Positions 666 to 38,060 of a stretch of DNA of 38,138 bases are shown here, in pieces; positions within the stretch are counted from its first letter, which is position 1; every line of letters starts with the position of its first letter. The stretch spans positions 1-38,138 of the IMG/VR virus record IMGVR_UViG_3300020378_000007. One strand, given 5' to 3'. Under the pieces are notes generated by a model that saw nothing but the letters and a program-made list of their open reading frames with translations, was not told the DNA's origin and searched no databases. The position numbers and the translations under genes are program-made. This stretch comes from a virus.

Positions 666-707
666 TGTTGACTGTCGCTGGTGTAAAGGTAACAGCGACA
701 GACAACA
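666..707. other. intergenic hairpin (15-bp stem)
   Basis: TGTTGACTGTCGCTG pairs with CAGCGACAGACAACA, leaving one A-A mismatch after the outer five pairs and a 12-nt loop. It begins about 10 nt after the stop of the gene at 717-929 and ends just before the ribosome binding site of the next leftward gene. It shares the single outer-stem mismatch of the other left-arm hairpins but lacks the three-base bulge. There is no U-run on the leftward side, so it is not a standard terminator; processing, stability or protein binding are possible roles. Confidence 0.6.
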
Positions 708-1259: not shown

Positions 1260-1297
1260 TTTACTCTCCCTACATTATACAATATAGGGAGTGTAAA
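1260..1297. other. hairpin just after the 91-aa gene
   Basis: TTTACTCTCCCTA pairs with TAGGGAGTGTAAA, leaving a single T-T mismatch after five outer pairs and a 12-nt AT-rich loop. In the leftward direction it starts about 10 nt after the TAA of the gene at 1308-1583. A second small hairpin (AAACC-TATC-GGTTT) overlaps the stop codon region at 1296-1309. The placement after a stop and the outer-stem mismatch follow the pattern of the other left-arm hairpins. Confidence 0.55.
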
Positions 1298-1583: not shown

Positions 1584-1640
1584 AGTATCCTTTCTATATT
1601 TGCTTATGCCTTATAATATATATTATTATCTTACATAATA

Positions 1641-1692
1641 TATATCAGTCATCTTTCTGACTCCAAGAGTCTGAAGAAAGATGAGTGATATA
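1641..1692. repeat. bulged hairpin element, family copy A
   Basis: Outer stem TATATCA/TGATATA, one G-G mismatch, middle stem TCATCTTTCT/AGAAAGATGA, a 3-nt bulge (TGA) on the right arm, apical stem GACTC/GAGTC and loop CAA. The apical half reads CTGACTCCAAGAGTCTGAAG, matching the copies at 1800, 2107 and 2530 in form while the stem bases differ. It begins 2 nt beyond the stop of the 27-codon gene at 1695-1778 in the leftward direction. Confidence 0.8.
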
Positions 1693-1694
1693 TA

Positions 1695-1778
1695 CTATCC
1701 AGTGTGATACACTAGATAGTAATAATCAGCAGTATGTTCTGTGTCACATTCGTGACAGTATATTGTGTCAACAATCAA
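1695..1778 (-). CDS. 27-aa Cys/His micropeptide
   Basis: A 27-codon frame with TTG start at 1778. The preceding bases AAAGGATATAAA are almost identical to the ribosome site of the gene at 2157-2399 (AAAGGATATAAT before ATG), which decides the start. The peptide contains YCHECDTEH: C8, C11 and nearby histidines could hold a metal as half of a zinc knuckle, followed by an aromatic tail. Its end overlaps a weak 13-bp hairpin (1693-1721). Neighbouring genes also encode Cys-pair proteins. I do not recognise a family; translation is supported by the ribosome site only. Confidence 0.5.
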   Translation of the reverse strand: MIVDTIYCHECDTEHTADYYYLVYHTG

Positions 1779-1799
1779 TTTATATCCTTTCAATATATA

Positions 1800-1840
1800 A
1801 TTACTGTCCTGACCTCAAAAGGTCGGAAGGACAGTAATTT
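1800..1840. repeat. bulged hairpin element, family copy B
   Basis: Stem AATTACTGTCCT/AGGACAGTAATT, 3-nt bulge GGA on the right arm, apical stem GACCT/AGGTC, loop CAAA. This copy has no outer mismatch. It starts about 7 nt after the stop of the gene at 1847-2071 (leftward) and ends just before the ribosome site of the 27-aa gene. The bases of both stems differ from the other copies but pair perfectly. Confidence 0.8.
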
Positions 1841-1846
1841 ATTTGA

Positions 1847-2071
1847 TTATTTAAATAGAGCCAGCTTTAGCTGGTCTATCTTGGTTAGTTCCTGTCTAGA
1901 AACTTCCCAAGCATTATCCCCATTTAAATACACTTTGGTGCTACACGCACCATAATGTATATTTAGGGGATATGTCATACCATTTTTAGCTGGTTTCCAG
2001 TATGCGTCTTTCTTAAAAACGATTTCGCTTTTACATACACGACATACTTTTTTATTTTTAAATTTATCCAT
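1847..2071 (-). CDS. small zinc-finger-like protein, 74 aa
   Basis: Start ATG at 2071 after AGAAAGGAATAATT. C10 and C13 (VCRVCKSE) with H39 and C43 (IHYGACS) form a likely C2HC zinc site. The N-terminus is lysine-rich. Such small zinc ribbons in phage early regions usually bind nucleic acid or host polymerase subunits, but no specific family is recognised. Flanked by bulged hairpin elements on both sides, which suggests that its mRNA is bounded or processed there. Confidence 0.7.
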   Translation of the reverse strand: MDKFKNKKVCRVCKSEIVFKKDAYWKPAKNGMTYPLNIHYGACSTKVYLNGDNAWEVSRQELTKIDQLKLALFK

Positions 2072-2106
2072 AATTATTCCTTTCTATATAGATAAAGATA
2101 CATAAG

Positions 2107-2155
2107 TATCAGTCAGTATTCTGACTCCAAGGAGTCGGAAGAATACTGAATGATA
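2107..2155. repeat. bulged hairpin element, family copy C
   Basis: Outer stem TATCA/TGATA with a G-A mismatch, middle stem TCAGTATTCT/AGAATACTGA, 3-nt bulge GGA, apical stem GACTCC/GGAGTC and loop AA (or a 4-nt loop if the last C-G pair opens). The right arm ends 1 nt before the stop codon of the gene at 2157-2399, so the hairpin is the immediate 3' end of that reading frame in the leftward direction. Confidence 0.8.
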
Positions 2156-2156
2156 A

Positions 2157-2399
2157 TTATCTAAGATAACGCATATCCTCGATAGCATCATCTATGCATG
2201 TTGTGCATATATTGGAGTGTCCTCCCCAGCTATCTCGGATATATCTTAGGTCATAACTCTCTGCACAGACACTGCAGATAGTTTCTATCCCTGTAAGATT
2301 AAATGCACATGGGCGACATTCGCCACCGAAGGTTGGCTCATTGTCCCATGCATTTAATACTGCATCATTATCACAGCGGTTCTTACACTTAATTGTCAT
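2157..2399 (-). CDS. double zinc-ribbon protein, 80 aa
   Basis: An in-frame ATG at 2414 would add five residues, but the sequence AAAGGATATAAT lies between it and the ATG at 2399, so I choose 2399. The 80-residue protein holds four Cys pairs: C5/C9, C28/C31, C42/C45 and C65/C68, enough for two zinc sites of treble-clef or ribbon type. It is the most upstream gene of the leftward left-arm cluster, nearest the promoter at 2615-2644. It likely acts early by binding nucleic acid or a host protein; the family is unknown. Confidence 0.7.
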   Translation of the reverse strand: MTIKCKNRCDNDAVLNAWDNEPTFGGECRPCAFNLTGIETICSVCAESYDLRYIRDSWGGHSNICTTCIDDAIEDMRYLR

Positions 2400-2412
2400 A
2401 TTATATCCTTTC

Positions 2413-2457
2413 ATGTCGGAAGGTTCGAACTCAGAAGTTCGAGAACCTTCTAGACAT
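2413..2457. repeat. bulged hairpin element, divergent copy D
   Basis: Outer stem ATGTC/GACAT, a small internal mismatch, middle stem GAAGGTTC/GAACCTTC, apical stem GAACT/AGTTC and loop CAGA, with a 2-nt bulge instead of three. It lies directly upstream of the start of the 80-aa gene, in the 5' leader of the leftward transcript. It keeps the two-stem, right-arm-bulge layout but not the conserved CTGAC/GTCNGAAG bases, so membership in the family is less sure. Confidence 0.6.
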
Positions 2458-2529
2458 AAAGATATATATTACATAAGACTGTATAGGTATCTTAAATAAC
2501 TATATATCTCTATATTTTAATGTACTAGG

Positions 2530-2574
2530 AAGTCATACTGTCTGACTTCAGGAAGTCAGAAGACAGTATGTCTT
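2530..2574. repeat. bulged hairpin element, family copy E
   Basis: Outer AAG/CTT, a T-T mismatch, middle stem CATACTGTCT/AGACAGTATG, 3-nt bulge AGA, apical stem GACTTC/GAAGTC, loop AG (or a 4-nt loop CAGG). It lies about 40 nt downstream of the predicted leftward transcription start, in the leader, with no gene next to it. This copy therefore cannot be explained as a gene-end structure alone. Confidence 0.8.
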
Positions 2575-6795: not shown

Positions 6796-7165
6796 AGGTG
6801 GGTATAGACAACCAAAAAAACCTGCAGCTGTAGCTACACCACAAGGTGGACAAAGAACTGATGGTGGCCCAGGAAGTAGTAAACAACCTCTTAGAAGGCT
6901 ACCTGACGCTGATTACGGTGCAAATAAAGCATTTGTAGAACAACAACAGGCTGCTCCGTTACCAAAACAAAATCCAATGCCTGTAGCACCCAATGTGTTT
7001 GCACCAACAGAAAGACCAGGGGAACCTGTTACACAAGGACAACCTATAGGAGCTGGTGCTGGACCTACTGTTATAGCTGATAATACTGATGCTATACTGC
7101 AAGCTTTGTATCAAATTAATCCAACACCTACATTATTGGAGATTATTAACAATAGGAATATATAG
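6779..7165 (+). CDS. basic, disordered hypothetical protein, 128 aa
   Basis: Starts at ATG 6779 with GGGAG six bases upstream. Residues 1-100 are rich in Gly, Pro, Gln and Ala with a basic N-terminus (KNRRGGYRQPKKP) and look disordered. Residues 100-128 (DAILQALYQINPTPTLLEII) may form a helix. It lies between the portal and a giant virion protein, overlapping the latter by 1 nt (TAGTG). A structural or DNA-condensing accessory is plausible. No family recognised. Confidence 0.65.
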   Translation: MAKNRRGGYRQPKKPAAVATPQGGQRTDGGPGSSKQPLRRLPDADYGANKAFVEQQQAAPLPKQNPMPVAPNVFAPTERPGEPVTQGQPIGAGAGPTVIADNTDAILQALYQINPTPTLLEIINNRNI

Positions 7166-10100
7166 TGGCATTTATACTCAATGATAGAAATGAGTATTAT
7201 GACATACTTAATTCACGTAGACAATTAGAACAACAAGCAAGTCAATATAATGCTTTATTACAAACTAATCCAGAACAAGTATTAGAAAATCTAGAAAAGT
7301 ATCCTACTGAATTAGATACAGGTACTGCATTAGGTATGAGTATTTTAGGAATACCACCTGAATATCAAGCTGTTAAAGAAATAGCACAGTCTAGTAGAAC
7401 TAATAAACTTTATAACGAAGCTAAGTTATGGCAGGAATTACAACAAAGATATCAATATGACCATGTAGAAAACAATATGAAGATGACATGGGGTGACTTA
7501 TGGACAGGTGGATTAATGCCAGGAGGAGCTAAACCAGGAGATGTTCAATATGGTGTATGGGCATTTGCTGCTTTAGATGCTTTCTTTCAAACAGTTGGTC
7601 CATCAGGTAAATGGTCTGTCATAGGTTCTGCTGTAAATGCATTATCACCTGGACAACCTATGAAAGTAGGTAGGTCACAAGCATATCTAAGAGATTTAAG
7701 GTCATACGATAAATTACTTAAAAAAGGTTATACACCACAAAAAGCACAAGATATGTTGCAAATAGACCTTAGTGGTACTCAAGTGTCTGGATTAGGACAA
7801 GAACTTGGAACAATGGATGAACTTAGACAACAAATTGATATGATACAAGAAGCACATAAGATGGGTGGGGAACCTGTACTTGCTGCTATGTTTAGAGCTG
7901 TATCAGAAGGTAAGCCATTAAACTTTGATAGAAGTACAAAGATTACTTTAGAATCTGTAAAAGCAGAAAAAACACCTTATTATGTTGCATTAACTACAGA
8001 TTATGGAATGTCACCTGACCAAGCTAGAGATTTTATTTATAGCAATATAGGAGCTCCATTAAAGAATTTTGATGAAAATGGCGAAATACATTACACTTCT
8101 GCATTTAATCCTAATAAAATTAATTTTTTTGCAGGTAGAGCACAACAAAGATTCTTTTGGGCAGGACAATCAGAACAAGATTACTTTAGACCTGAGTGGG
8201 CAGATAGAGATATATTGCTTGAATACTCACCAGGTAGAGTAACTGCAGCTGAAGTCTTTGCACCTGGCTCTAAAGCTTTTAATGTTATGTCAGGTTTAAC
8301 TGATGCTGCATATCAAATTGCACCAGAATTATTAGCTGGTAAAGGTATTAAAGGAATTAAAAACGTTAGTAAAGGATTACGTAGAGTTAATCCTGCTATG
8401 GAATTATTAGATGAAGGTGCATTAGTTAAAGGCACTAAGTTTAGTAAAAAACGTGTACGAGTAAGTAGCAAAAACTTAGCAGATAATATTTTAGAAGAAG
8501 TAGGACCAGAGATTGATGGAGCTACTGGTACAGGTAATTTAAGTAAATTAGTTAATAATGCAGGTCAATTGATAACAAATCAAACAATTGGTAAAGATAT
8601 AAGCACTACTAAGAAAGCTCTTAGAAAAATTAAAAAAGAACATACTTTATTTGGTAGAGTACCTAAATTCTTTCAAACTACAAAAGATGAGATATTAAAC
8701 AACAATACTAATATTGAGTTCTTTAAAGCGTTAGCAGAAGAAGATAATCTGTATTTAATTAGTAATAATCCAATTACTAGACATTTACCTGCACAAGTTC
8801 AATCAGATATTGTAGCAGAAACTGATTGGAGAAAAGTACAAGGTATGTTTGATGATATGATTTCATCATCAGGTTATGCAATACGTAATGATGTAGGACA
8901 AGTAGTACCTTATACATTACCTGGACGTATGTTGCCTAAGACTGGTTCACTTGCAGTAAATAAATTTTTACAATCTACTGGTTTAAACCCTAATGCTAAC
9001 TACAGAACATTTGGTAGTTGGGCTGGTGAAAAAACAAGAAAACTACGTGAAGGTGTATTTCCTATAAGAAAATCTAGAAAAGAACCATCTAAATTAGTAG
9101 AGGTAGGTAATGAAGCTGTTATTGATACTATGGATGCAGTATCTGATAAAGCATCAGCTTTAGCTAAGTTAGAAAACGTTACACCATCATATGCATTAGA
9201 AAAGTTAGATTTAGCAGGTGCACCTAAGTTTGAAAGATATTTAGGTTTTAGTTCTAACTTTAATTCTACATACAATCCTTATTACAGAAAGTTATTAGGA
9301 GTTGTTCCTGACATGGGAATACCTCTTAATAATTTAAATGTTGGGTATAAACAATTGTCATCTCATTTGCAAATTAATGGTTATGACGCAGATACTGCTA
9401 ATAAAATTATGAAAGATTTTATGGCAATTAATCCATTAGATAAACCTGCATATAGAGATTTTGCTTTTCAACAAGCTTCTAGAGATTTAAAGATGGTAAG
9501 AGCTAGAGGTGGTAATCATGAGTATATAGCAGACCATGCAGCAAAAATGTTTGAAGGTCTTAATAAAATGAAAATATATGCAACTGATGCAGACAAAAAC
9601 ATACTTCCTAACATTGGTTCTAACTATAGAGGATTTGAAATAAATGAATTAGGTTACGCAACAGATGAACTAGGTAATGCTGTAACTACTATGAGTGGTT
9701 CTATGTTTAGTGAAATGCAAGACAATATTGCACCATTGTTAGATTATAGATTGTTAGAACGTGCATTAGGACCTTTATTTAAAGCATATCCAGATAATCA
9801 GTTTAAAGCTACAAGTATTCTTTCTGATAGTAAAAATTATCTCAAATATAAAACACAACACTTGTCATGGAACAAAGCAGATGATGCTATTCCTAATCCA
9901 TTTGATGATGGAATATTAAATGTTAAAAGATTAGAGAATAACTTTGTAAGCAATGTTATGTCTTTTTATACAAGAAATTTATTTAAACCTTTTGTATTAA
10001 TGAGAGCTGCTTTCTTTACTCGTGTATTTATGGAAGAACAAGCACGTATAGCAGTTAAAGGATTGTCTAGTATTTATAACAGACCATATGAATACTTTCA

Positions 10101-12942
10101 ATGGTTAGCTGCACATAATCCTAATTCACGTGTTGGTAAAATATTAGAATCTTTACCTTTCAGTAAATATAAAGGAGCACAATACAATCCAGATGCTGTT
10201 GATTTCTTAATGCAAGAAGAAGTAATGGAAGCTATGCAAAAAACTATGCGATATGAAGATATGGCAGGTGGTGCAAATAAACCTAAAAATAATAAATACG
10301 TAGAATACTTAGGTAGAAAAACATCAGAATTAACTGAACCACAAATAGTAGAATCTGTATATCACGAACTTAGATTATTAAGAGGTGACCCATTAGCAGC
10401 AGCAGTAGCTAGACATGGGTATGGTTCAGACGAATTAGCAGAATGGATTGCTAGTCCTGCAGGTAGAGAAGCAAGATTGCAATTTATAAGATACAAAGGT
10501 AAAAAAGCCGCAAACTTTATAGATGATAACCATAGAGATTTAGACCAACATTTACAATACTTAGAATCTAGAATAAGAATTATATCAGGTGGTACATTTG
10601 ATATTGCTAAAGATGCAGTTAAAAATAAAAAAGGTGCATTTACATATGCATTACGTAAAGGTGGTAATGGTGGTAACTCTGCTATAAGAACAATGGTAGC
10701 TGAAGGTAAACTTACAAAGTTTGGTACAACAGGTAGTAATAAAAAAGACATTGTAGAATTTTTTAGTACAGAAGATGTATTTCTTAAAAAGTTTAAAAAA
10801 TCAAAAATTACTGATGAATTAGCTAAATATTATAACAAAACAGATGGTATTGACCCAGGTACTCTTACACAAATTGTAGATAAAGCTGAAGACATGACAC
10901 CACAAAACTTCTTAGGACAAGTAGAAGATATGATGGATAATGCTTATCAAGCAATATTTGATAGATTAATGACAAAACCTATTGGTTATTTAAACCGTTC
11001 AACTACATTTAAACAATTTAGATGGATGTATATCCAAGATAGATTTAAAGATTTTGATAAAGGATTAAGAAGTAAATTTATAAAAGAAGCTAAAGAAGCT
11101 GGTGTACCAAAAGATATTATAGAAGAAATGGTTGGTCTTAATAAATTATATAAACCAGGAAAAATATCAAATTATGAAGTAATGAATACAGAATCTAAAG
11201 CTTATGCATTAGCTGGTGTTAAAGAATTATTATACGATACAAAACAAAGACATACACTATCTGACAAGCTTGTGAATATATTCCCATTTATTGAAGTATG
11301 GTTTGAGGTATTTCAAACATGGGGACAGCTATTTGGAGAAAACCCTTATGTATTAAGAAAAGCTCATTTAGGTGTACGTGGTGGTGGAGCAGCAGATGCT
11401 TTAGGTGCTAGCTCAGAAGATGGATTTATATCACCTGACCCTATGGACCCAACTAGAGATGTCTTTGTATATCCATTTGGTGGTTTTATGTCTAACTTAA
11501 TATTTGATGATGAGTTAACAGATGGAGAACAAAATGTACAAATATCACCTAGAGGACAATTACAAGGTGTTAACTTACTAGCACAAGGATTTGTACCTGG
11601 TCCTAACTCATTAGTTGCATTTGGTATAGACAAAGTATTACCAAAAATAGAAACAGCTTCAACAAAACTAGGTGCTAAATATGGTTGGGCTAATGAATTT
11701 GAGAAGTTCTTGTTTGGTGATTTCCCACCACCAGAAGAAGTATCTGATGTATTTGCTGTATCTCCTGTATATAAAAAAGGTAGAGCAATGTTATTAGAAC
11801 CAGAAGACTTTGAATATATTACAGAAAATAGTAGTGAAGTAGAAAAGATGCGTGCTAAGAAAACTATTGATGTATTTAGATGGGGTGTATCTGCAGGAGA
11901 ACCTAAGAGATTGTATGAATCTGGTAAGTTAGATAAATATTTAGATATAGTTGCACCTAATACATCTAAAGCTAATTTAAACCAAGGACAAATAGAACTT
12001 GCTTACTTAGAGTTTGCTAAAGAAAAATCAGGTACTTTGTTTGCATTTGAATTTATGGTGCAGTTCTTTGGTCCTACTGGATTTAAACCAGAGTTTTTTG
12101 TAGAAGATAAACAAGGACATTTGTGGGGACAAGCTGCTTTGTATGAAGAATATATAAGAATTAGAGAAAAAAATAATGGTAATGATATAGCTACATACAA
12201 TGAATATCTAGAACTATATGGATTAGAACATCCATACATGATGAGCCCTAGGTCACAATCAGAAGTAGGTAAACAACCTACAAGTGTTAGAGTACAAAAC
12301 TTTCAAAAAGATAATCCAGAAATATTTGATAGTTTAAAAATCAGTGGTTATTACTTAAACATAGATAATCCTTATGAAGAAAAAAGATATGACGATATTG
12401 TTGTAGAAAAAACACTGTTAAGTCCTGACCAATATCGTAGAGCTGTCAATGATACATTAGGTTTTTTTAGATATAAAACTTTTACAAAGAAAATAGATGC
12501 ACTAGAAACATTAACTGCACAACAAAAAACTATATTTAAACGTAGTTATAGAAACGAATTAAAACTTGCATTACCTGGTTTTCAATCAGAAGAATATGGT
12601 CAAATGAACCCACCTTCTACTGAAGATATATTTAATGAAATGAAACAACAATGGTTAGTTAATCCAGCAATATTAGAGCTTGACTCTGGTAAAGGTTTCG
12701 CTGCTATAATGCAACATTGGGATTATGCATCAGCACTATCTACTGAATACTCTAGTACTAAGAATCCTGATTGGTGGTTACAATCAGAGGACCCTAGAGC
12801 TAAAGCTTTGAGGATTTATGTTGCTAATGCAGCTAATGGAATAATTGAAGAATACCCTGAGTTCTGGGGTGTATGGACAGGAGTTCTGTTAAAGTTATAT
12901 AGAGATGACCAGGAAGTATTAGACTACTTCCCAGAAGGATAA
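7165..12942 (+). CDS. giant putative internal/ejection virion protein, 1925 aa
   Basis: By far the largest gene, 15 percent of the window. The start is GTG at 7165, overlapping the TAG of the previous gene. The protein is mainly helical with no signal peptide. Its central part (residues about 930-985) has hydrophobic patches such as FVLMRAAFFTRVFMEEQAR, and another lies near 1370-1390 (FPFIEVWFEVFQTWGQLFG). I see no polymerase, lysozyme or protease motif. In podoviruses such long proteins are usually carried inside the capsid and ejected with the DNA. Placement between portal and capsid, rather than after the tail, is unusual. The function is inferred from size and context only. Confidence 0.6.
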   Translation: MAFILNDRNEYYDILNSRRQLEQQASQYNALLQTNPEQVLENLEKYPTELDTGTALGMSILGIPPEYQAVKEIAQSSRTNKLYNEAKLWQELQQRYQYDHVENNMKMTWGDLWTGGLMPGGAKPGDVQYGVWAFAALDAFFQTVGPSGKWSVIGSAVNALSPGQPMKVGRSQAYLRDLRSYDKLLKKGYTPQKAQDMLQIDLSGTQVSGLGQELGTMDELRQQIDMIQEAHKMGGEPVLAAMFRAVSEGKPLNFDRSTKITLESVKAEKTPYYVALTTDYGMSPDQARDFIYSNIGAPLKNFDENGEIHYTSAFNPNKINFFAGRAQQRFFWAGQSEQDYFRPEWADRDILLEYSPGRVTAAEVFAPGSKAFNVMSGLTDAAYQIAPELLAGKGIKGIKNVSKGLRRVNPAMELLDEGALVKGTKFSKKRVRVSSKNLADNILEEVGPEIDGATGTGNLSKLVNNAGQLITNQTIGKDISTTKKALRKIKKEHTLFGRVPKFFQTTKDEILNNNTNIEFFKALAEEDNLYLISNNPITRHLPAQVQSDIVAETDWRKVQGMFDDMISSSGYAIRNDVGQVVPYTLPGRMLPKTGSLAVNKFLQSTGLNPNANYRTFGSWAGEKTRKLREGVFPIRKSRKEPSKLVEVGNEAVIDTMDAVSDKASALAKLENVTPSYALEKLDLAGAPKFERYLGFSSNFNSTYNPYYRKLLGVVPDMGIPLNNLNVGYKQLSSHLQINGYDADTANKIMKDFMAINPLDKPAYRDFAFQQASRDLKMVRARGGNHEYIADHAAKMFEGLNKMKIYATDADKNILPNIGSNYRGFEINELGYATDELGNAVTTMSGSMFSEMQDNIAPLLDYRLLERALGPLFKAYPDNQFKATSILSDSKNYLKYKTQHLSWNKADDAIPNPFDDGILNVKRLENNFVSNVMSFYTRNLFKPFVLMRAAFFTRVFMEEQARIAVKGLSSIYNRPYEYFQWLAAHNPNSRVGKILESLPFSKYKGAQYNPDAVDFLMQEEVMEAMQKTMRYEDMAGGANKPKNNKYVEYLGRKTSELTEPQIVESVYHELRLLRGDPLAAAVARHGYGSDELAEWIASPAGREARLQFIRYKGKKAANFIDDNHRDLDQHLQYLESRIRIISGGTFDIAKDAVKNKKGAFTYALRKGGNGGNSAIRTMVAEGKLTKFGTTGSNKKDIVEFFSTEDVFLKKFKKSKITDELAKYYNKTDGIDPGTLTQIVDKAEDMTPQNFLGQVEDMMDNAYQAIFDRLMTKPIGYLNRSTTFKQFRWMYIQDRFKDFDKGLRSKFIKEAKEAGVPKDIIEEMVGLNKLYKPGKISNYEVMNTESKAYALAGVKELLYDTKQRHTLSDKLVNIFPFIEVWFEVFQTWGQLFGENPYVLRKAHLGVRGGGAADALGASSEDGFISPDPMDPTRDVFVYPFGGFMSNLIFDDELTDGEQNVQISPRGQLQGVNLLAQGFVPGPNSLVAFGIDKVLPKIETASTKLGAKYGWANEFEKFLFGDFPPPEEVSDVFAVSPVYKKGRAMLLEPEDFEYITENSSEVEKMRAKKTIDVFRWGVSAGEPKRLYESGKLDKYLDIVAPNTSKANLNQGQIELAYLEFAKEKSGTLFAFEFMVQFFGPTGFKPEFFVEDKQGHLWGQAALYEEYIRIREKNNGNDIATYNEYLELYGLEHPYMMSPRSQSEVGKQPTSVRVQNFQKDNPEIFDSLKISGYYLNIDNPYEEKRYDDIVVEKTLLSPDQYRRAVNDTLGFFRYKTFTKKIDALETLTAQQKTIFKRSYRNELKLALPGFQSEEYGQMNPPSTEDIFNEMKQQWLVNPAILELDSGKGFAAIMQHWDYASALSTEYSSTKNPDWWLQSEDPRAKALRIYVANAANGIIEEYPEFWGVWTGVLLKLYRDDQEVLDYFPEG

Positions 12943-25507: not shown

Positions 25508-26089
25508 GTGGAAACAATTTATTGGTTTGTCTTAAATGCTAATGACTTACCTCCTTCAGAAACATACTTACCTGTACAAAGATACAATGAAGATACATTT
25601 GGTTGTCCTCAAATGGTTAAATATAATCAACATAGAGCATATATAGAAAGTCCTGTATCGTTTGAGCTACGTAATAATGAACTATATGTAGAAAAAGAAA
25701 TGCCTCGTATGTTTAACATAATGCATACAGGACATAAAGTAATGCAAATGCCTTATTGTTTTCTTACAAAAAATAAAAACATTAAATTATTTTTACAAAA
25801 TATATCTACATTAGAAATGACAGAAGGCATTATACCTATAGGTAAATATCCTAGAATTATAAATTATACATTTAAAGGCAACGGTAAAGTTAATCAAGGT
25901 GACCCTATTGTACAAGTGTTGTTTAACGAACCTGTAAAATTAGTACATATAGTACCTAATGAAAGTATTTTAAATTTTGTACAATCAACATATCAAATAT
26001 CCCATTACAAAAATAATATAACTAAAATATTTAATAGAACTTCTATTGCTTACCCAAGAAAAGAATTAGATAAATGTCAAAGAAGATAA
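25508..26089 (+). CDS. hypothetical protein upstream of halogenase, 193 aa
   Basis: GTG start at 25508 with AGGAG upstream. The protein has a CP-containing beta segment (GCPQMVKYNQHRAYIESPVSF), then a segment with T-K-N-I-K-L and later QGDPIVQVLFNEPVKLVHI. The same order of features occurs in the protein downstream of the halogenase at 27227, and the two look like distant paralogues. They resemble a beta-rich family I recall from marine phages near halogenase genes (possibly DUF6065), but I am not certain of the name. Its stop overlaps the halogenase start by 16 nt, so the two are likely co-expressed and act in one pathway. Confidence 0.6.
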   Translation: METIYWFVLNANDLPPSETYLPVQRYNEDTFGCPQMVKYNQHRAYIESPVSFELRNNELYVEKEMPRMFNIMHTGHKVMQMPYCFLTKNKNIKLFLQNISTLEMTEGIIPIGKYPRIINYTFKGNGKVNQGDPIVQVLFNEPVKLVHIVPNESILNFVQSTYQISHYKNNITKIFNRTSIAYPRKELDKCQRR

Positions 26090-27237
26090 CAATATTAGGT
26101 AAAGGAACTGCAGGTAGTATTACTGCTGCACATTTTTCACACTATACAGAAGATGAAATAGAAGTTATATACGATAGCAATATACCTGAGGCTGCAGTAG
26201 GAGAAGGTTCGCAATTATCTTTGCCTAAATTACTAACAAACATATTTAATTTATCTTGGCTTGAGTTATCTAAAATAAATTACAATGCTAAACAAGGTAT
26301 TATGTATCAAAACTGGGGTGCAAATAATTACTTTCATAACTTTCCTATACCTGAAAGTGCTTGGCATTTTAACGCATTAGGCTTACAAAATTTTATAAAA
26401 GAAAAAATTGAACATAAAGTTAATTACATAGATAAACATATAAAAAATGTAAATGAATTAGATACTGATTATGTAATTGATTGTAGAGGTAAACCTACTA
26501 TGGATGACAGGTTTGCAATACAACATGATATGGTTATTAACTCAGCTTATGTAGTTCAATGTCCATGGGATTATCCTAAGATACAATATACATTAGCTAT
26601 AGCTAGACCTTATGGTTGGGTATTTGGTGTTCCATTATCTAATAGATTGTCATTAGGTTATATGTATAATGATAAATTTAATACAGTTGATGAAATTAAA
26701 AAAGATATAGAAGAAGTTCTAAACCTATTAGAAGAAGAAGCAGACGGTAAAATAAATAATCTTTCATTTAATAATTATAAATTAAGACAAAACTATAGTG
26801 AGTATCAATCACATAATGGCAACGCATCATTCTTTTTAGAACCATTAGAAGCTACTTCTATAGAAACTATTGACTTTATTAATAGACAAACATATGACCT
26901 TATATACAATGGACATACTATTGATTATGAACAACAAAAATTAGACATGTGGTTTGATGAAACTAATGTAATAATTATGATGCATTATGCAGCAGGTAGT
27001 CAATTTGATACACCGTTTTGGAAACATGCTATAAAAAAAGGTTGGAATTGTTTAGACAATGCACCTATTACTTTTACAGAACAAGTACAAAATGTACAAA
27101 GATATCTTGATAAACAAATAGATAGTAATGAATTAGGTATATTTGGTGCAGGTTGGAACTTAAGAAGTCAAGCAGAAAACCTTATAGGATTAGGTATATA
27201 CGATAAACTTATAGAAAGGATTAAAGTTGCAAATTAG
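26074..27237 (+). CDS. flavin-dependent (tryptophan-type) halogenase
   Basis: Uses reduced FAD, oxygen and halide to make hypohalous acid, which is led through a tunnel to a catalytic lysine and then to an aromatic substrate. Seen here: the FAD-binding GKGTAG (residues 9-14), AVGEGS (41-46) as the second FAD-contacting loop, K73 in NAKQGIMYQNW at the place of the catalytic Lys, GWVFGVPL (181-188) at the place of the WxWxIP signature with the second Trp replaced by Phe and Ile by Val, and EPLEATS (256-262) supplying the catalytic Glu/Ser loop. At 387 aa it is shorter than PrnA/RebH (about 530 aa); the substrate-binding domain is reduced, so the substrate is probably not free tryptophan. A cyanophage halogenase (VirX1) is known. 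No flavin reductase gene is nearby. Confidence 0.9.
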   Translation: MSKKITILGKGTAGSITAAHFSHYTEDEIEVIYDSNIPEAAVGEGSQLSLPKLLTNIFNLSWLELSKINYNAKQGIMYQNWGANNYFHNFPIPESAWHFNALGLQNFIKEKIEHKVNYIDKHIKNVNELDTDYVIDCRGKPTMDDRFAIQHDMVINSAYVVQCPWDYPKIQYTLAIARPYGWVFGVPLSNRLSLGYMYNDKFNTVDEIKKDIEEVLNLLEEEADGKINNLSFNNYKLRQNYSEYQSHNGNASFFLEPLEATSIETIDFINRQTYDLIYNGHTIDYEQQKLDMWFDETNVIIMMHYAAGSQFDTPFWKHAIKKGWNCLDNAPITFTEQVQNVQRYLDKQIDSNELGIFGAGWNLRSQAENLIGLGIYDKLIERIKVAN

Positions 27238-33412: not shown

Positions 33413-33685
33413 TTAGATAGTCTGTTCTCTTTTTAAAAAACCTTTAAGTAAATCACGATATGCTACGCTAGTTCCGACTCTTTGTCTTCCATCATATATA
33501 TCGTGATGATGCTTACATAATATAGCTACATTATTAATATCAAATTTACGTTTCTTATTACCGCCCATACCTATACCTTGTATATGTGCAAGTTCTAACC
33601 ATTTGTTATCATTACAGTATGCCCATTCACATTGATTATTAGCACGCTGCATAGCTTCTTCACGTATCTCTGATAACCCATTCAT
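33413..33685 (-). CDS. HNH endonuclease, 90 aa
   Basis: A small HNH nuclease: C19/C24 and C57 with nearby histidines hold the structural zinc, H34 (ELAHIQGIGMGG) is the catalytic His region, N52 the Asn and H59-H61 (LCKHHHDIYDG) the second His. Such proteins nick or cut DNA. In many phages an HNH protein lies beside the terminase and helps packaging at cos sites, but here it is far from terL and ends the leftward operon. Start overlaps the upstream gene by 1 nt. It could be a packaging helper or a homing-type nuclease. Confidence 0.8.
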   Translation of the reverse strand: MNGLSEIREEAMQRANNQCEWAYCNDNKWLELAHIQGIGMGGNKKRKFDINNVAILCKHHHDIYDGRQRVGTSVAYRDLLKGFLKREQTI

Positions 33686-34251
33686 TAATCTATTATAAAG
33701 TAACTTCCCTTAGGTAAGTTCCATGTTTTCATAACATCCTGTGCTCTAAATTTACCTTTATCAGGACTGCCGTTGTATATACAATGTGCAGCTTTTAAGA
33801 ACATTAAGCTATTACATTTACCTTTTGTGTAATGTATTTGACTTTCATTTAATGTTATAAGTTGTTCTATATAATCTAATGTACGTTGTGTTACTTCACC
33901 ATGGTCTGTCTTTGTAGCAGGACGCATAGCGTGTTCTATGTTAGGTATTCTTTCATTGTTACCTACTTCAATTTTTCTAGGACATAACTTAGATTTACGT
34001 ATTGTATCTAGTTCATGTGTAAGTGTGATAGTCATTTCTAATGTATCACGTTCTATAGTCATAGTAACCCACATAGGATTACCTTTATCTGTTACTCCTA
34101 GTAAACGTTTACCTCCAAATGTGCTTGCGTTATCTGCCTCTGTTGCCTTTTCGTTTAACCACTCGTACCATTTTATTCTGGTTGCGTCTGGCGTTATATG
34201 ATATAACTCTGTTGCACTAGCAAATCTAGTGTTTGATGTGTTATATACCAT
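33685..34251 (-). CDS. hypothetical protein, 188 aa
   Basis: ATG at 34251 overlaps the TAA of the gene upstream. Mixed alpha/beta protein with two Cys, one of them in KLCPRKIEVG, and a C-terminal part (HYTKGKCNSLMFLKAAHCIY, then KGKFRAQDVMKTWNLP). No motif I know. Placed between an HNH gene and a 69-aa gene in the leftward early operon, so a DNA-related role is possible. Family not recognised. Confidence 0.65.
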   Translation of the reverse strand: MVYNTSNTRFASATELYHITPDATRIKWYEWLNEKATEADNASTFGGKRLLGVTDKGNPMWVTMTIERDTLEMTITLTHELDTIRKSKLCPRKIEVGNNERIPNIEHAMRPATKTDHGEVTQRTLDYIEQLITLNESQIHYTKGKCNSLMFLKAAHCIYNGSPDKGKFRAQDVMKTWNLPKGSYFIID

Positions 34252-34460
34252 TACTCTTCTTCTCCTTCTAGTTGTTCTAAGTGATAGTTATAATCTGTTA
34301 CAAATTTATCCATTAAGAACCTAAGCTTTTGCATGTCAGGTTTTACTTTAAACGTATCACTACCGCATGCTTTATTAAACTGCTGTGCCCATACTTTCAT
34401 GTACTTAGGGTGTGTAAAAATGTTTACACGATTTACATCAAATGGTTTATTCCCACTCAA
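34251..34460 (-). CDS. hypothetical protein, 69 aa
   Basis: TTG start at 34460, supported by GGAG about 10 bases upstream inside the preceding gene, which it overlaps by 14 nt. A helical protein ending in an acidic tail (HLEQLEGEEE) with one Cys. Coupled to genes on both sides. No recognised family. Confidence 0.6.
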   Translation of the reverse strand: MSGNKPFDVNRVNIFTHPKYMKVWAQQFNKACGSDTFKVKPDMQKLRFLMDKFVTDYNYHLEQLEGEEE

Positions 34461-34617
34461 GATTATCCATCTCCATTTCTAATTTTTCTATACAATCATT
34501 ACAATACTTAACTAATGTAAAATCAGTCATATAACTTATACCGCATATTTCACATACAAGATTAAGTATTTTATTTATTTCTTTTCTAAACTGTTTGTTT
34601 ACGTTAGACCATGTCAT
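34447..34617 (-). CDS. four-Cys zinc ribbon protein, 56 aa
   Basis: ATG at 34617. C22/C25 (VCEICGI) and C39/C42 (YCNDC) form a standard zinc ribbon, preceded by a basic helix (VNKQFRKEINKIL) and followed by an acidic tail. It overlaps the frames on both sides (14 nt each), a sign of coupled translation. Probably binds nucleic acid or a protein partner; no named family. Confidence 0.6.
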   Translation of the reverse strand: MTWSNVNKQFRKEINKILNLVCEICGISYMTDFTLVKYCNDCIEKLEMEMDNLEWE

Positions 34618-34708
34618 CTACATGACCCCACACTTTCTCACAATAATCACAATATACTTGGTCAGTTACCACGCATACTCTGTCTAGTTTGTGTCCACAA
34701 CAAATCAT
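34604..34708 (-). CDS. 34-aa Cys-rich micropeptide
   Basis: ATG at 34708 preceded by GGAAAGGAACTGATA, a strong ribosome site. C3, C4, H6, C12, C20 and C23 (MICCGHKLDRVC; VYCDYCEKVWGH) would fold around one zinc as a minimal ribbon. It overlaps the end of the lysozyme gene by 47 nt in another frame and the next zinc gene by 14 nt. Despite the overlap, the ribosome site and Cys spacing argue for a real gene. Confidence 0.55.
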   Translation of the reverse strand: MICCGHKLDRVCVVTDQVYCDYCEKVWGHVDDMV

Positions 34709-35114
34709 TATCAGTTCCTTTCCAACAATGTTTACTACTGTTCCAATGATGCCAACCATCATTATACACTAACCATGCTGCGACTGCAGTTGATACCTCT
34801 GGGTTAGTACGTTTACTTATTATACCAAGCTTAGGTTTTAACCAAGCCCATGTATCATCATTAAACTGCCAGAGTCCAACATCCCTGGTACCGTTAGTAT
34901 TATTACCGATAGCTTGCGGGCGGCCGCTACTTTCACAGTATATAATACCTAATGCACGAGGGATGTCTTCCTCTTTAAAATACCTGGATAACATTTCAGT
35001 ATGTTCAGATACATGAAGTATATTTTCTTGTACTTGTATACATTCACGATACTCAGGTAAAGTGTCAGTTGTTAGAACCATAGGTAAAAAACAACTGACT
35101 AATATTTCTATCAT
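34662..35114 (-). CDS. lysozyme-like transglycosylase (endolysin), 150 aa
   Basis: A goose-lysozyme/SLT-type muramidase fold: E61 in IIYCESSGRP is the catalytic Glu, followed by DVGLWQFNDDTW (78-89) and AAWLVYNDGWHHW (112-124), all hallmarks of lytic transglycosylase domains. The first 17 residues (MIEILVSCFLPMVLTTD) are hydrophobic and may act as a signal or signal-arrest segment, so export may not need a holin. It cleaves the glycan chains of peptidoglycan at lysis. Unusually it lies in the leftward early operon, away from the holin genes. TAATG-like coupling with the gene upstream. Confidence 0.8.
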   Translation of the reverse strand: MIEILVSCFLPMVLTTDTLPEYRECIQVQENILHVSEHTEMLSRYFKEEDIPRALGIIYCESSGRPQAIGNNTNGTRDVGLWQFNDDTWAWLKPKLGIISKRTNPEVSTAVAAWLVYNDGWHHWNSSKHCWKGTDNDLLWTQTRQSMRGN

Positions 35115-35383
35115 TAGCTAATGGCAGAAGTTTTTGTTGGAACTTCTGTACAAAAATAATGTACAAGTCCACGTTTTTTACTAGGTAAAGTTGTTATCTT
35201 ATAACCTTCCTGCCTAAGGTTATGTATAATACCACCGAATCTATGGCAGTATAACTCAGCTACAAACTCCCAGTTACTTATAGGACTTTCTCCCATGTAT
35301 CTGGTCAATACATACGCTACTAACTGCGTCTTGCTTTTAATGTAAGCTGGTATTGCTTCACCTCTAAATGATTCTGGAATCAT
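35114..35383 (-). CDS. winged-helix DNA-binding protein, 89 aa
   Basis: A longer frame from 35425 exists, but AAAGGAGTG before ATG 35383 and the ATGA overlap with the upstream gene decide the start (MIPESFRG). Residues 20-75 fit a winged helix: KTQLVAYVLTRYM, ISNWEFVAELYCHRFGG, IIHNLRQEGYKITTL then a beta wing ending in VHYFC. Probably a transcription regulator or a DNA-binding replication accessory. Family name not certain. Confidence 0.65.
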   Translation of the reverse strand: MIPESFRGEAIPAYIKSKTQLVAYVLTRYMGESPISNWEFVAELYCHRFGGIIHNLRQEGYKITTLPSKKRGLVHYFCTEVPTKTSAIS

Positions 35384-35919
35384 ATGTTCCACTCCTTTGG
35401 TATATCGCTGTTGTCTAACCACCATGACTTACGCCACTTACCTGTATGACCTCCGCATTCTACAGGGTCATTAGTACTGCATGTAAAGTCTGGACTTTTA
35501 TCTGACTTTTTACTGTTACGATTGTCATATACCATTGCTTGACAATATGGACATTTTAAGTCATCACGATATTTGTTTTGTTTTTCCATGTCTTTTACGA
35601 CCTCTCCGATAAGACCACCAGGTTGTTGTAAACCATCTGTCTTGTCTGTTGCTTCAAGGCCTGCAGCCTTAAGTTTATCTTCTAATGATAACTCATCAAA
35701 CTGCTCTTGTGTATATTCAACTGGCATATCAACAAGTCGTTCTATCATAGCAAAGTACTTGCTTACTTGTTCATCTGTCCAATCTGTTTTAGACATAGGG
35801 TATTTCATTGTACGTGCATACTCGTTAGCAGTACCTATAATACGCTGCAATGTTTCCTTGTTCTGAATACCTTCAGTCATTGCATGTATAGTGCTAGCTA
35901 TAAAGTTTACATCTTGCAT
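35380..35919 (-). CDS. zinc-ribbon protein next to the annealing protein, 179 aa
   Basis: Residues 1-118 are helical and acidic. C123/C126 (CPYCQ) and C147/C155 (FTCS...ECGG) make a zinc ribbon ending in KWRKSWWL. The combination of helical domain plus 'CPxC...VYDNR...PDFxC' ribbon is one I have seen near recombination genes of other phages. It follows the Rad52-like gene with a 1-nt overlap, so it likely assists DNA recombination or single-strand binding. No enzyme motif. Confidence 0.65.
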   Translation of the reverse strand: MQDVNFIASTIHAMTEGIQNKETLQRIIGTANEYARTMKYPMSKTDWTDEQVSKYFAMIERLVDMPVEYTQEQFDELSLEDKLKAAGLEATDKTDGLQQPGGLIGEVVKDMEKQNKYRDDLKCPYCQAMVYDNRNSKKSDKSPDFTCSTNDPVECGGHTGKWRKSWWLDNSDIPKEWNI

Positions 35920-36500
35920 TAGAAAGGTGCTTCGTCTTTAGGATAAGGTTGTATCTCATCATCTACTGTTGTACCTTCACCTACGATACTATCCATTATG
36001 TCATTCATACGTTTAATATCTTCTGGTGTAGGTTTATGTTCTTTCTTACGCATGTCTACTTTACTTACTTCTACCCTATCTTCAGGTTCAGTAGCTGCTG
36101 TAGCCTCTTCTTCTGATTGTTTGCTGCCTGACCATAGCTCTACGCCAAGGCCAAACCTCATACATGCACGTTTAAATGCATCAGACTCTGCGTCTTTAAG
36201 GTTGCTGCCATCATTAAACTTAGCATTGCTTAGCTTAAATGTATCTATATCACCGAAGCCTTCATATGTTCCCATATGTTCTCCATCATGAATAGTTATA
36301 ATACCTTTAGCACCTACAATTCTTTTCTCTCCATTGTATGTACTGTATATAGGTTCGCAGAACCAACTGTATTTTACTCCACTGTCCCTTAGGCGTTCTA
36401 CATAATGTGCGTGTGGCACATAATCACCGAACTTTCCTGCGGGTGCTTTACGAACTAACTCCTGTGGAAATGGAGATAGCAAGTCAACGTTATTACTCAT
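35919..36500 (-). CDS. Rad52-like single-strand annealing protein, 193 aa
   Basis: The fold of Rad52/Sak-type annealing proteins is seen in GDYVPHAHYVERLRDSG (25-41), the beta hairpin VGAKGIITIHDG (62-73), GFGD (81-84) and the signature KDAESDAFKRACMRFGLG (102-119) followed by VELW. Such proteins form rings on ssDNA and anneal complementary strands, serving phage recombination and replication. The C-terminal 70 residues are disordered and acidic, ending PYPKDEAPF, similar to the Pro-Phe tip of SSB. Start ATG at 36500 after AAGGGAAGTT. A hairpin precedes it. Confidence 0.85.
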   Translation of the reverse strand: MSNNVDLLSPFPQELVRKAPAGKFGDYVPHAHYVERLRDSGVKYSWFCEPIYSTYNGEKRIVGAKGIITIHDGEHMGTYEGFGDIDTFKLSNAKFNDGSNLKDAESDAFKRACMRFGLGVELWSGSKQSEEEATAATEPEDRVEVSKVDMRKKEHKPTPEDIKRMNDIMDSIVGEGTTVDDEIQPYPKDEAPF

Positions 36501-36516
36501 AACTTCCCTTCTTATT

Positions 36517-36559
36517 TTATCTTTGTGTGAGAGTCAGGTAGTGACGAACACAAAGATAA
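36517..36559. other. intergenic hairpin before the annealing gene
   Basis: TTATCTTTGTGT pairs perfectly with ACACAAAGATAA (12 bp). An asymmetric internal loop (GAGA/GA) leads to an inner GTCA/TGAC stem with loop GGTAG. It starts 3 nt after the stop of the gene at 36562 (leftward) and ends before the ribosome site of the Rad52-like gene. Layout and placement match the left-arm hairpins, though the apical bases differ. Confidence 0.65.
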
Positions 36560-36561
36560 GA

Positions 36562-36762
36562 CTATTCTTCTTCTAAGCCTAACAGTTTCCTTAAATTATA
36601 TATACCTATTTCTACAGGTACTAATTTAAAGTCACCACTGTCATTCATTAATATAAAGTGTGGCTTATTGCCTAAACCACTGTACTCTATACTTTGTAAT
36701 TTCCAGTTAGACTTGACAATATTGTCTATCATATGTATATTATATGCCCTATATTTCCTCAT
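36562..36762 (-). CDS. hypothetical protein, about 66 aa
   Basis: The frame has possible starts TTG 36768, ATG 36762 and ATG 36732; none has a strong ribosome site, so I give the middle one with low certainty. The protein looks like a small alpha/beta domain (NWKLQSIEYSGLGNKPHFIL, then LVPVEIGIYNLRKLLG) with an acidic end. It overlaps the metallophosphoesterase gene and is followed by a strong hairpin. Unknown family. Confidence 0.55.
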   Translation of the reverse strand: MRKYRAYNIHMIDNIVKSNWKLQSIEYSGLGNKPHFILMNDSGDFKLVPVEIGIYNLRKLLGLEEE

Positions 36763-37819
36763 TTGCAAGCTTTACTAGGTATTCTGCAGTTACTCCTGCA
36801 CCTGGTTTAGCAAACAATAACCATTGACATGGCCTTCCCATACTAGCTAACTGTTCTAATGCATATGTATTGTATGATTCAGTAGAACCATTAACCCATA
36901 ACCGTACGTCATTCACGTACATAGTTGTAGGTGTATGGAAATGACCAGCAATAGCGTAGTCGAAGTCGGGCATGAGGCCTCGACTAGCTAATGCTTTCCA
37001 TCCTAACAGTTTCTTACCAAAGCCATACCAGGGAAAACCTGAATGACCACGTATGTTATCACCATGCCATACAAAAAACTTACATCCTTCGCCTACATTA
37101 GCTATATCAAACCAGTGATTATCACCTGTACTATCAGGTATAGTCCATGTCATACGCTTTTCATCTTTGTATATCATAGACATAATCTTTCCAAGCATTC
37201 TATCTGCATTGGAATCTGGATGATAATCTTTACGTGCTCTACCACCAAGGCTGCCATGATTACCTATAACCCAATGAACATCTACTTCATTGAAGTTTGC
37301 TAGCAATGTATCAAAAAATTTTGTTAATATTCTGGGACCGTCAATAGTTACCTGGTTATATAAGCTAGCATCTATGAGATGTGTTTGACCTGGAAATATA
37401 AGCTCACCTTCTACTATATCTCCAGCTGCTAGTACTACACATTTATTAACTGGATGTGCTGAACGTTGTACATTAGTAAGCTCTACTATTTTATTTGCGT
37501 ATTCAACTACACGTGCTTCTGCTACTTGTGTATTGTAATCTGGTGTTACCTTTGCTAATTGCACATCACTTAATACAGCTACTGCAACTTCTTCGTTCTT
37601 AGTTTTTTTATGTAGTTTAGGTTTAGGTATTTTAGGTTTGTCCCACGTCCGTAGGTTTGTAGAAACTGCCTGATATACAGCGTCAATCATATCAGCTTTT
37701 TTATTCTTAGCTTTTTCTAATTGTTTAAGTAAGCGTAGATTATCTTTTTTAAGTTCTTGAATTTTATGAGATTCAGCTTCCGCTATAAGTTTGTTAATCT
37801 CTTTATCTGATTTAGCCAT
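36749..37819 (-). CDS. calcineurin-like metallophosphoesterase, 356 aa
   Basis: Residues 1-60 form a charged coiled coil (ELKKDNLRLLKQLEKAKNKK). The phosphoesterase core has LSDVQL (83-88), AAGDIVEGE (131-139), VIGNHGS (184-190), WHGD (251-254) and AGHFHTP (291-297), the five metal-binding motifs. In the first motif the usual D-x-H is D85-x-Q87: the His ligand is replaced by Gln. Similar phage enzymes are thought to act on DNA ends or nucleotides, like SbcD/Mre11 nucleases. It lies in the recombination operon with the annealing protein, which fits DNA processing. Start overlaps the upstream gene by 8 nt. Confidence 0.85.
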   Translation of the reverse strand: MAKSDKEINKLIAEAESHKIQELKKDNLRLLKQLEKAKNKKADMIDAVYQAVSTNLRTWDKPKIPKPKLHKKTKNEEVAVAVLSDVQLAKVTPDYNTQVAEARVVEYANKIVELTNVQRSAHPVNKCVVLAAGDIVEGELIFPGQTHLIDASLYNQVTIDGPRILTKFFDTLLANFNEVDVHWVIGNHGSLGGRARKDYHPDSNADRMLGKIMSMIYKDEKRMTWTIPDSTGDNHWFDIANVGEGCKFFVWHGDNIRGHSGFPWYGFGKKLLGWKALASRGLMPDFDYAIAGHFHTPTTMYVNDVRLWVNGSTESYNTYALEQLASMGRPCQWLLFAKPGAGVTAEYLVKLANEEI

Positions 37820-38060
37820 GCGTTGCTATGTTCTCGAAGTGATGTCGTACTGCTGATTCACTTATCTTTATATTAAAATGTTCTTTGAGTAACCTAGATA
37901 CAACGTAAGGTTTAATTGGTGTACCATTCTTTACACGTTCTTCGCAGCCATCCCAGAAGGGTTGTGCTTCAGGTGTAATCCTGGTTAAGATAGCACTACG
38001 TTTACCATTTTCTGCTTCGTATAGTAATTCATCTATATCCATTGTTGTCATTATACTCAT
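37812..38060 (-). CDS. HTH DNA-binding protein, 82 aa
   Basis: Residues 45-77 (GTPIKPYVVSRLLKEHFNIK, then SESAVRHHFE) fit a helix-turn-helix with the recognition helix at SAVRHHFENI. The N-terminus is acidic with three possible Met starts (residues 1, 4, 7). First gene of the leftward operon at this edge of the window, with only 78 nt upstream that show no clear promoter. It may act as a small terminase-like or regulatory protein; the HTH resembles those before nuclease genes in other phages. Confidence 0.65.
   Translation of the reverse strand: MSIMTTMDIDELLYEAENGKRSAILTRITPEAQPFWDGCEERVKNGTPIKPYVVSRLLKEHFNIKISESAVRHHFENIATHG

Follow-up and report, generated by a model that had tools for sequence, protein, structure and literature searches.

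Uncultured phages of one group, most of them marine, have hairpins between their early genes; the stems vary freely from copy to copy with their pairing kept, and the bulge and tip are common to the copies of one phage. We read these hairpins, at close to even confidence, as an intercistronic RNA element that is recognised by a factor acting in trans and marks gene ends for early-mRNA processing or 3'-end protection. Structure, covariation, place, orientation and the common bulge type within a phage were observed directly; the mechanism discussed further below is correspondingly worded as a model.

Hairpins in the window and their gene context

The window analysed here is the whole of an IMG/VR virus record (IMGVR_UViG_3300020378_000007, positions 1 to 38,138; 38,138 bases), the DNA of which has nothing similar among isolated phages. 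Small genes occupy the minus strand at 1–2399 and again at 33413–38060, and a terminase-to-tail module runs on the plus strand from 2941. The second minus-strand part encodes an exonuclease-family protein and a Rad52-family protein (Pfam, PHROG), the latter from gene 35919–36500. Because a close record, G002, has homologues of both minus-strand parts, we treat the two as a single operon, probably the early operon of the phage.

The four hairpins named in the original prediction (H1 to H4) are all present, with best limits as listed below. Their minus-strand folding z-scores relative to dinucleotide shuffles are -7.4 (H1), -7.0 (H2), -6.5 (H3) and -3.1 (H4), and when all 38 kb of the window were scanned mechanically for bulged and internal-loop hairpins, no others showed 3 bulged nt on the right arm and none on the left. 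Each contains 10–12 Watson-Crick pairs (10, usually followed by one mismatch and an outer stem) and a GAC...GUC tip of 5–6 pairs with a loop of 2–4 bases; H2 has 12 pairs without interruption and H1 has 19 paired bases below the bulge. Read on the gene strand, the 3-nt bulge lies in the 5' arm, the lower stem is continuous or mismatch-interrupted, and the apical motif is Y-C-Y [UCN] GAC...GUC R-G, which had originally been given for the plus strand. The outer stem with one mismatch, also described there, was seen again: the pairing level falls at position 11 below the bulge and is restored from position 12 onwards, so that an interruption roughly one helical turn away from the bulge is common. 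The fifth structure, at 2413–2457, had been proposed as a divergent copy; it is a real hairpin (z -3.8), but its bulge has 2 nt and a covariance model of the family (R1, built from 21 copies) misses it at E<=1, making it at best a divergent member. The features are given in minus-strand order down to the 91-aa gene, followed by hairpins outside the family.

2530–2574, minus strand: H4, leader hairpin ahead of the first early gene, the first of the family there; bulge UCU; model score 48.9 bits
2413–2457, minus strand: H5, divergent leader hairpin with a 2-nt bulge (UC), just upstream of the Shine-Dalgarno site of the 80-aa gene
2157–2399, minus strand: 80-aa early gene, Cys-rich, zinc-type; ATG at 2399 after AAAGGA
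2107–2155, minus strand: H3, begins 1 nt past the stop codon of the 80-aa gene; bulge UCC; model score 57.6 bits
1847–2071, minus strand: 74-aa early gene, CxxC...HxxxC zinc-type
1799–1839, minus strand: H2, 7 nt past the stop codon of the 74-aa gene; bulge UCC; model score 41.9 bits
1695–1778, minus strand: 27-aa mini-gene, TTG start, Shine-Dalgarno site AAAGGA, CHEC motif
1639–1694, minus strand: H1, directly adjoining the stop codon of the 27-aa gene (0 nt between them); bulge UCA; model score 59.4 bits
1308–1583, minus strand: 91-aa early gene, MSKPMQPVVCGITGK..., present in most relatives; ends the series of R1 hairpins
1260–1297, minus strand: non-family intercistronic hairpin, family bulge absent; 10 nt past the stop codon of the 91-aa gene
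666–707, minus strand: non-family intercistronic hairpin, 15-nt arms and 12-nt loop; 9 nt past the stop codon of the 70-aa gene 717–929
36515–36561, minus strand: non-family intercistronic hairpin containing an internal loop; immediately follows the stop codon of gene 36562–36768; z -2.3

The last of these sits, with gene 36562–36768, in the other part of the minus-strand operon. The 80-aa gene starts with the ATG at 2399, whereas the mechanical ORF list places its start at an ATG at 2414. Its product, one of the small zinc-type proteins that had been proposed as possible binders of the hairpins, is without a match in Pfam and PHROG and in 14 other records, several of them hairpin-bearing. The 74-aa protein shows a weak, below-cut-off similarity to the A2L zinc ribbon. 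The 27-aa mini-gene is missing from the mechanical list, which has a 40-aa ORF cut-off, and has a homologue of 71% identity in two related records. Similar Cys-rich mini-genes of 26–38 aa lie between hairpins in L011, L022, L032 and L060.

Pairing and covariation

The notion that pairing itself is kept found support in the related copies described below. Among 60 unique copies with 43 distinct 10-bp stems, 96.7% of the pairs are intact at the ten bulge-proximal positions, compared with 44% after exchange of the 3' arms (maximum of 53% in 1000 exchanges) and 18–29% after sliding the arms; three or four pair types occur at most stem positions. In the set of 21 aligned copies, 94.5% of cells pair, versus 72% when shuffled and 26–36% when slid, and 12 pairs are changed on both sides.

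The stems contain no G-U pair at the ten bulge-proximal positions, and a G-U-tolerant scan added just two more true copies with one G-U pair each. Near-absence of G-U is unusual for RNA stems and is our main reason for keeping a DNA-level role under consideration, namely a cruciform or single-strand hairpin in replication or recombination, for example as gene-cassette exchange boundaries used by the Rad52-like annealing protein of the phage. The near-perfect Watson-Crick pairing, the Rad52-family match of gene 35919–36500 and the variation among phages in the gene content between hairpins would be in line with this possibility. Against it speak the tight coupling of the hairpins to stop codons, their fixed orientation to the genes and the lack of copies in the late operon, and the stem differences between copies disfavour recombination among them; we assign it a low probability. 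An attempt to call the active strand from G-U versus A-C mismatches was uninformative, as both are almost absent, in the relaxed scan as well; the pair changes thus do not tell the active strand and are compatible with a role at the DNA level.

Copies in related phages and their position at gene ends

Terminase relatives are encoded in at least 599 IMG/VR stretches, 80 of which were fetched. A scan of these relatives for the hairpin shape gave 103 matches on the gene strand (58 unique), compared with 3–4 in shuffled sequence and with 2 unique matches on the opposite strand; these copy counts rest on contigs of unequal length. The covariance-model search that had been proposed as a check recovered the same kind of copies in related phages. 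In whole records its matches fall only within the early operon, in the stretch adjoining the terminase, and the late operon is free of copies; all family copies are located in the early operon and have one orientation relative to its genes. Two exact-pattern scans of all IMG/VR likewise recovered true copies, the stems of which extend 6–15 pairs past the pattern. Lone exact-motif matches in large unrelated contigs were dismissed as chance, their stems extending by only 0–3 further pairs.

The gene context, worked out in detail for a subset of the contigs from the IMG/VR scans, ties the hairpins to gene ends. A stop codon lies within 12 nt before the hairpin start in 30 of 53 copies, against 6.7% for random positions, a statistic that counts genes with a Shine-Dalgarno site and leans on a simple gene finder. 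The distance from hairpin to next start codon has a median of 41 nt, and units of stop codon, hairpin, Shine-Dalgarno site and start codon recur on the maps of seven phages. This arrangement invites the alternative that the hairpins are translation insulators: a hairpin abutting the stop codon would limit read-through as well as drifting or reinitiating ribosomes and thereby make the mini-genes translationally independent, with neither cleavage nor a cognate factor required. Many hairpins indeed begin 0–8 nt past the stop codon, and the gene that follows is equipped with an AAAGGA site of its own. Insulation would, however, leave the shared bulge and tip and the phage-linked bulge type unexplained, and we consider it unlikely.

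Bulge and tip shared within a phage

The bulges fall into the classes TCN (window, L032, L060/L105), UUCY (L024/L134, L125, L135, L140, L039, L057) and G-N-N (L011, L021, L022, L030). Among representative phages, 39 of 48 pairs of copies from the same phage have the same bulge class versus 14 expected (0 of 5000 shuffles reached this value, in a test that ignores kinship). Likeness of bulge plus tip amounts to 0.75 within and 0.65 between phages (0 of 2000), whereas the stems score 0.58 within versus 0.52 between. Bulge and tip thus follow the phage, not the gene position. The hairpin before the 74-aa gene illustrates this: its stem is CAGTATTCT in the window, L032 and L011, and its bulge is UCC, UCC and GCU, respectively. 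Shared ancestry contributes to the within-phage likeness, in that part of the bulge sharing could come from the common descent of close copies. Under gene conversion, one would not expect the stems to have stayed different.

The bulge had also been read as a kink-turn on the plus strand, which would make it a possible target of an L7Ae-like protein. On that strand, the order of C-stem, TCN, GA/GA and NC-stem is matched by the four window copies, but all adjacent genes are on the opposite one, and other copies keep the GA...TC pairs in Watson-Crick form while the bulge changes. A 3-nt bulge of the TCN type is needed, and only 22 of the 60 unique copies are compatible, on the antisense strand; the bulges of the others are UUCC, UUCU, UCCC, GCU, GUA, GUU, GCA or AAA. 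We regard the kink-turn as highly improbable.

Relatives devoid of the bulged form have other long hairpins at their early gene ends, with repeated tips of their own: AUCCUUACGG in L031, L071, L072 and L081, A-GUC-UUAU-GAC together with A-UUC-UUAU-GAA in L076, AGCCUAUGC in L078, and CUC-UUUAU-GAG in L012 and L037. We therefore take it as the general rule that each early gene end has one hairpin, its tip common within the phage, and regard the bulged form as one version. In L067 (3600–5300), several early gene ends carry hairpins that repeat the tip ATAAAAA (AUAAAAA as RNA) and whose stems end in CTTT/AAAG. In L031, L071, L072 and L081, one hairpin per phage is followed by 7–9 T on the sense strand, as in an intrinsic terminator; its siblings with similar tips are mostly without a U run.

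The phage group and its possible host

The window terminase is only about 25% identical to those of isolated phages, mostly Streptomyces phages. Matches to it also occur in five contigs of metagenome-assembled genomes (MAGs) with conflicting taxa. Two of them, L142 (PBPX01000045) and L143 (PBPX01000048), are phage contigs, both binned in one marine Actinomycetota MAG, and their terminases share 52% and 77% identity with that of the window; the remaining matches are in Gammaproteobacteria, Rhodobacteraceae and Flavobacteriaceae MAGs. In view of these conflicting taxa the binning is unreliable, and an actinobacterial host is suggested by just two points, the likeness to Streptomyces-phage terminases and the two contigs of one Actinomycetota MAG.

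Two further features of the window deserve mention. A plus-strand gene at 7165–12942, between portal-like and capsid genes, encodes a 1925-aa protein that is 55–60% identical in one set of relatives and only 24–33% in others, the terminase being 85–93% identical throughout the relatives compared; the gene is a swapped module. Its product is without a Pfam, PHROG or PDB match. At 26074–27237, also on the plus strand, lies a tryptophan-halogenase-like gene (Pfam Trp_halogenase, 1e-34) in a block that is 86–100% identical in G011 and G012; the other relatives mostly lack this block or have a far more divergent version.

Comparison with known systems

The early region of phage T7 has RNase III sites, R0.3 to R1.3, that form a hairpin at each boundary of the polycistronic message, with a long stem interrupted by unpaired bases and no U-tract. 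The hairpins described here resemble them in all three respects, and their stems (10 plus outer plus apical pairs) provide about two turns of double-stranded RNA at early gene boundaries. Sites of the T7 type are cut in the 3' part of the internal loop, where the unpaired bases are located on the 3' arm; here, a short bulge on the sense-strand 5' arm is combined with a conserved tip, and sequence and phage family differ. A cut in the 5'-arm bulge would strip the upstream message of its hairpin, which argues against T7-like cutting. We did not file the hairpins as T7-type RNase III sites, since cleavage is only predicted and the bulge is on the other arm.

The put RNA of phage HK022 also consists of early-operon hairpins with a bulge and no U-tract. 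It suggests that the hairpins might control transcription by acting on RNA polymerase, through put-like antitermination, pausing or termination independent of a U-tract; terminators of the latter kind have reportedly been proposed for some actinobacteria. The location of bulge-bearing hairpins in the early operon, the U run after one copy per phage in L031, L071, L072 and L081, and the distant terminase relatives, mostly from Streptomyces phages, would fit. Yet put is a single two-hairpin site near the promoter, and antitermination usually needs one site, while lone hairpins here recur at each junction; the presence of 3–6 copies, one per gene boundary, renders antitermination, a role originally considered, less likely. 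No U-tract follows any window copy and none of these copies is listed as a terminator on either strand, in agreement with the initial view that these are not standard terminators, and successive terminators would block the operon. Transcription control as a whole thus appears quite unlikely to us.

REP/BIME palindromes are intergenic elements near stop codons that form a hairpin with a small bulge; REP copies have a common sequence, unlike the unrelated stems of the present copies. Searches of the window and of nine relatives against Rfam yielded no match, the sub-threshold hits being unrelated models, mostly of miRNA and snoRNA, and literature searches on intergenic hairpins of phage early regions produced little of use. 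Among described elements, the closest parallel comes from cluster K mycobacteriophages: their extended start-associated sequences (ESAS) are imperfect 17-bp inverted repeats of unknown function with conserved arm sequence and a subcluster-specific consensus, tied to the 13-bp SAS at the start codon (PMC3203893). Both are repeated inverted structures before genes, in one orientation and with a consensus that varies by phage group (PMC3203893). The hairpins differ from ESAS in that their arms vary freely with pairing kept (43 distinct stems), a bulge is present, and they are tied to stop codons, the mapped early gene starts being preceded by an AAAGGA-type site only.

A model for the function of the hairpins

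An RNA element acting cistron by cistron is our favoured reading, since the hairpins sit at gene ends in a fixed orientation, are confined to the early operon and have recognition features in common. The original prediction had named processing sites among the possible roles, and on gene-end place, orientation and early-operon restriction we, too, put processing or 3'-end protection first, followed by translation insulation, transcription control and a DNA role. Three elements of this reading are inferred: activity as RNA, the existence of a trans factor and cutting of the message. According to this model, the hairpins would be read on the minus strand together with the genes, in early mRNA, each marking the end of one early gene some tens of bases ahead of the next ribosome-binding site. 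One trans-acting factor would recognise the top feature in all copies of a phage, that is, the pyrimidine-rich 5' arm, the bulge of 3–4 nt, the GA...UC pairs and the small loop; such a factor is proposed because the recognised part shifts genome-wide in step while the stems stay in place. The long, perfectly paired stem would offer a double-stranded platform, and the differences between stems may keep the copies from recombining or pairing with each other. A double-strand-specific endonuclease might act at the hairpin, be it host RNase III or a phage nuclease, or else a phage binding protein, and each mini-gene would end up on its own stable message, as achieved by the RNase III sites of the T7 early operon.

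A more specific version, possible though doubtful in our estimation, is a natural cassette system in which a phage-specific endonuclease or binding protein cuts or caps the gene-separating hairpins. Its specificity for bulge and tip would shift between phage groups in step with all copies of a genome, and the system would span the whole phage group, including the tips AUCCUUACGG, AUAAAAA, A-GUC-UUAU-GAC and AGCCUAUGC. Csy4 hairpins placed between genes by engineers are a similar arrangement. A search for the cognate phage protein by presence and absence gave no clean split between hairpin-bearing and other records for any of the window proteins. An N4-like virion RNA polymerase with hairpin promoters was considered as well, as the variant of the 1925-aa protein partly tracks the hairpin type. 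We rejected this idea: the protein lacks matches of any kind in the three databases named above, a promoter would need conserved stems, and G021 breaks the correlation between variant and hairpin.

Implications

The hairpins are a conserved element found in no RNA library. They make up an RNA family not described before, which covaries strongly and follows a simple rule: a free stem, a common bulge and tip, and one copy per gene end. As the part that is recognised varies from one phage group to another and the stems persist, comparing the groups offers a way to look for the cognate factor, and cutting or binding can be addressed with synthetic RNA, with no need for phage culture. If a phage protein were responsible, the group would offer distinct hairpin-specific RNA processing or binding proteins.
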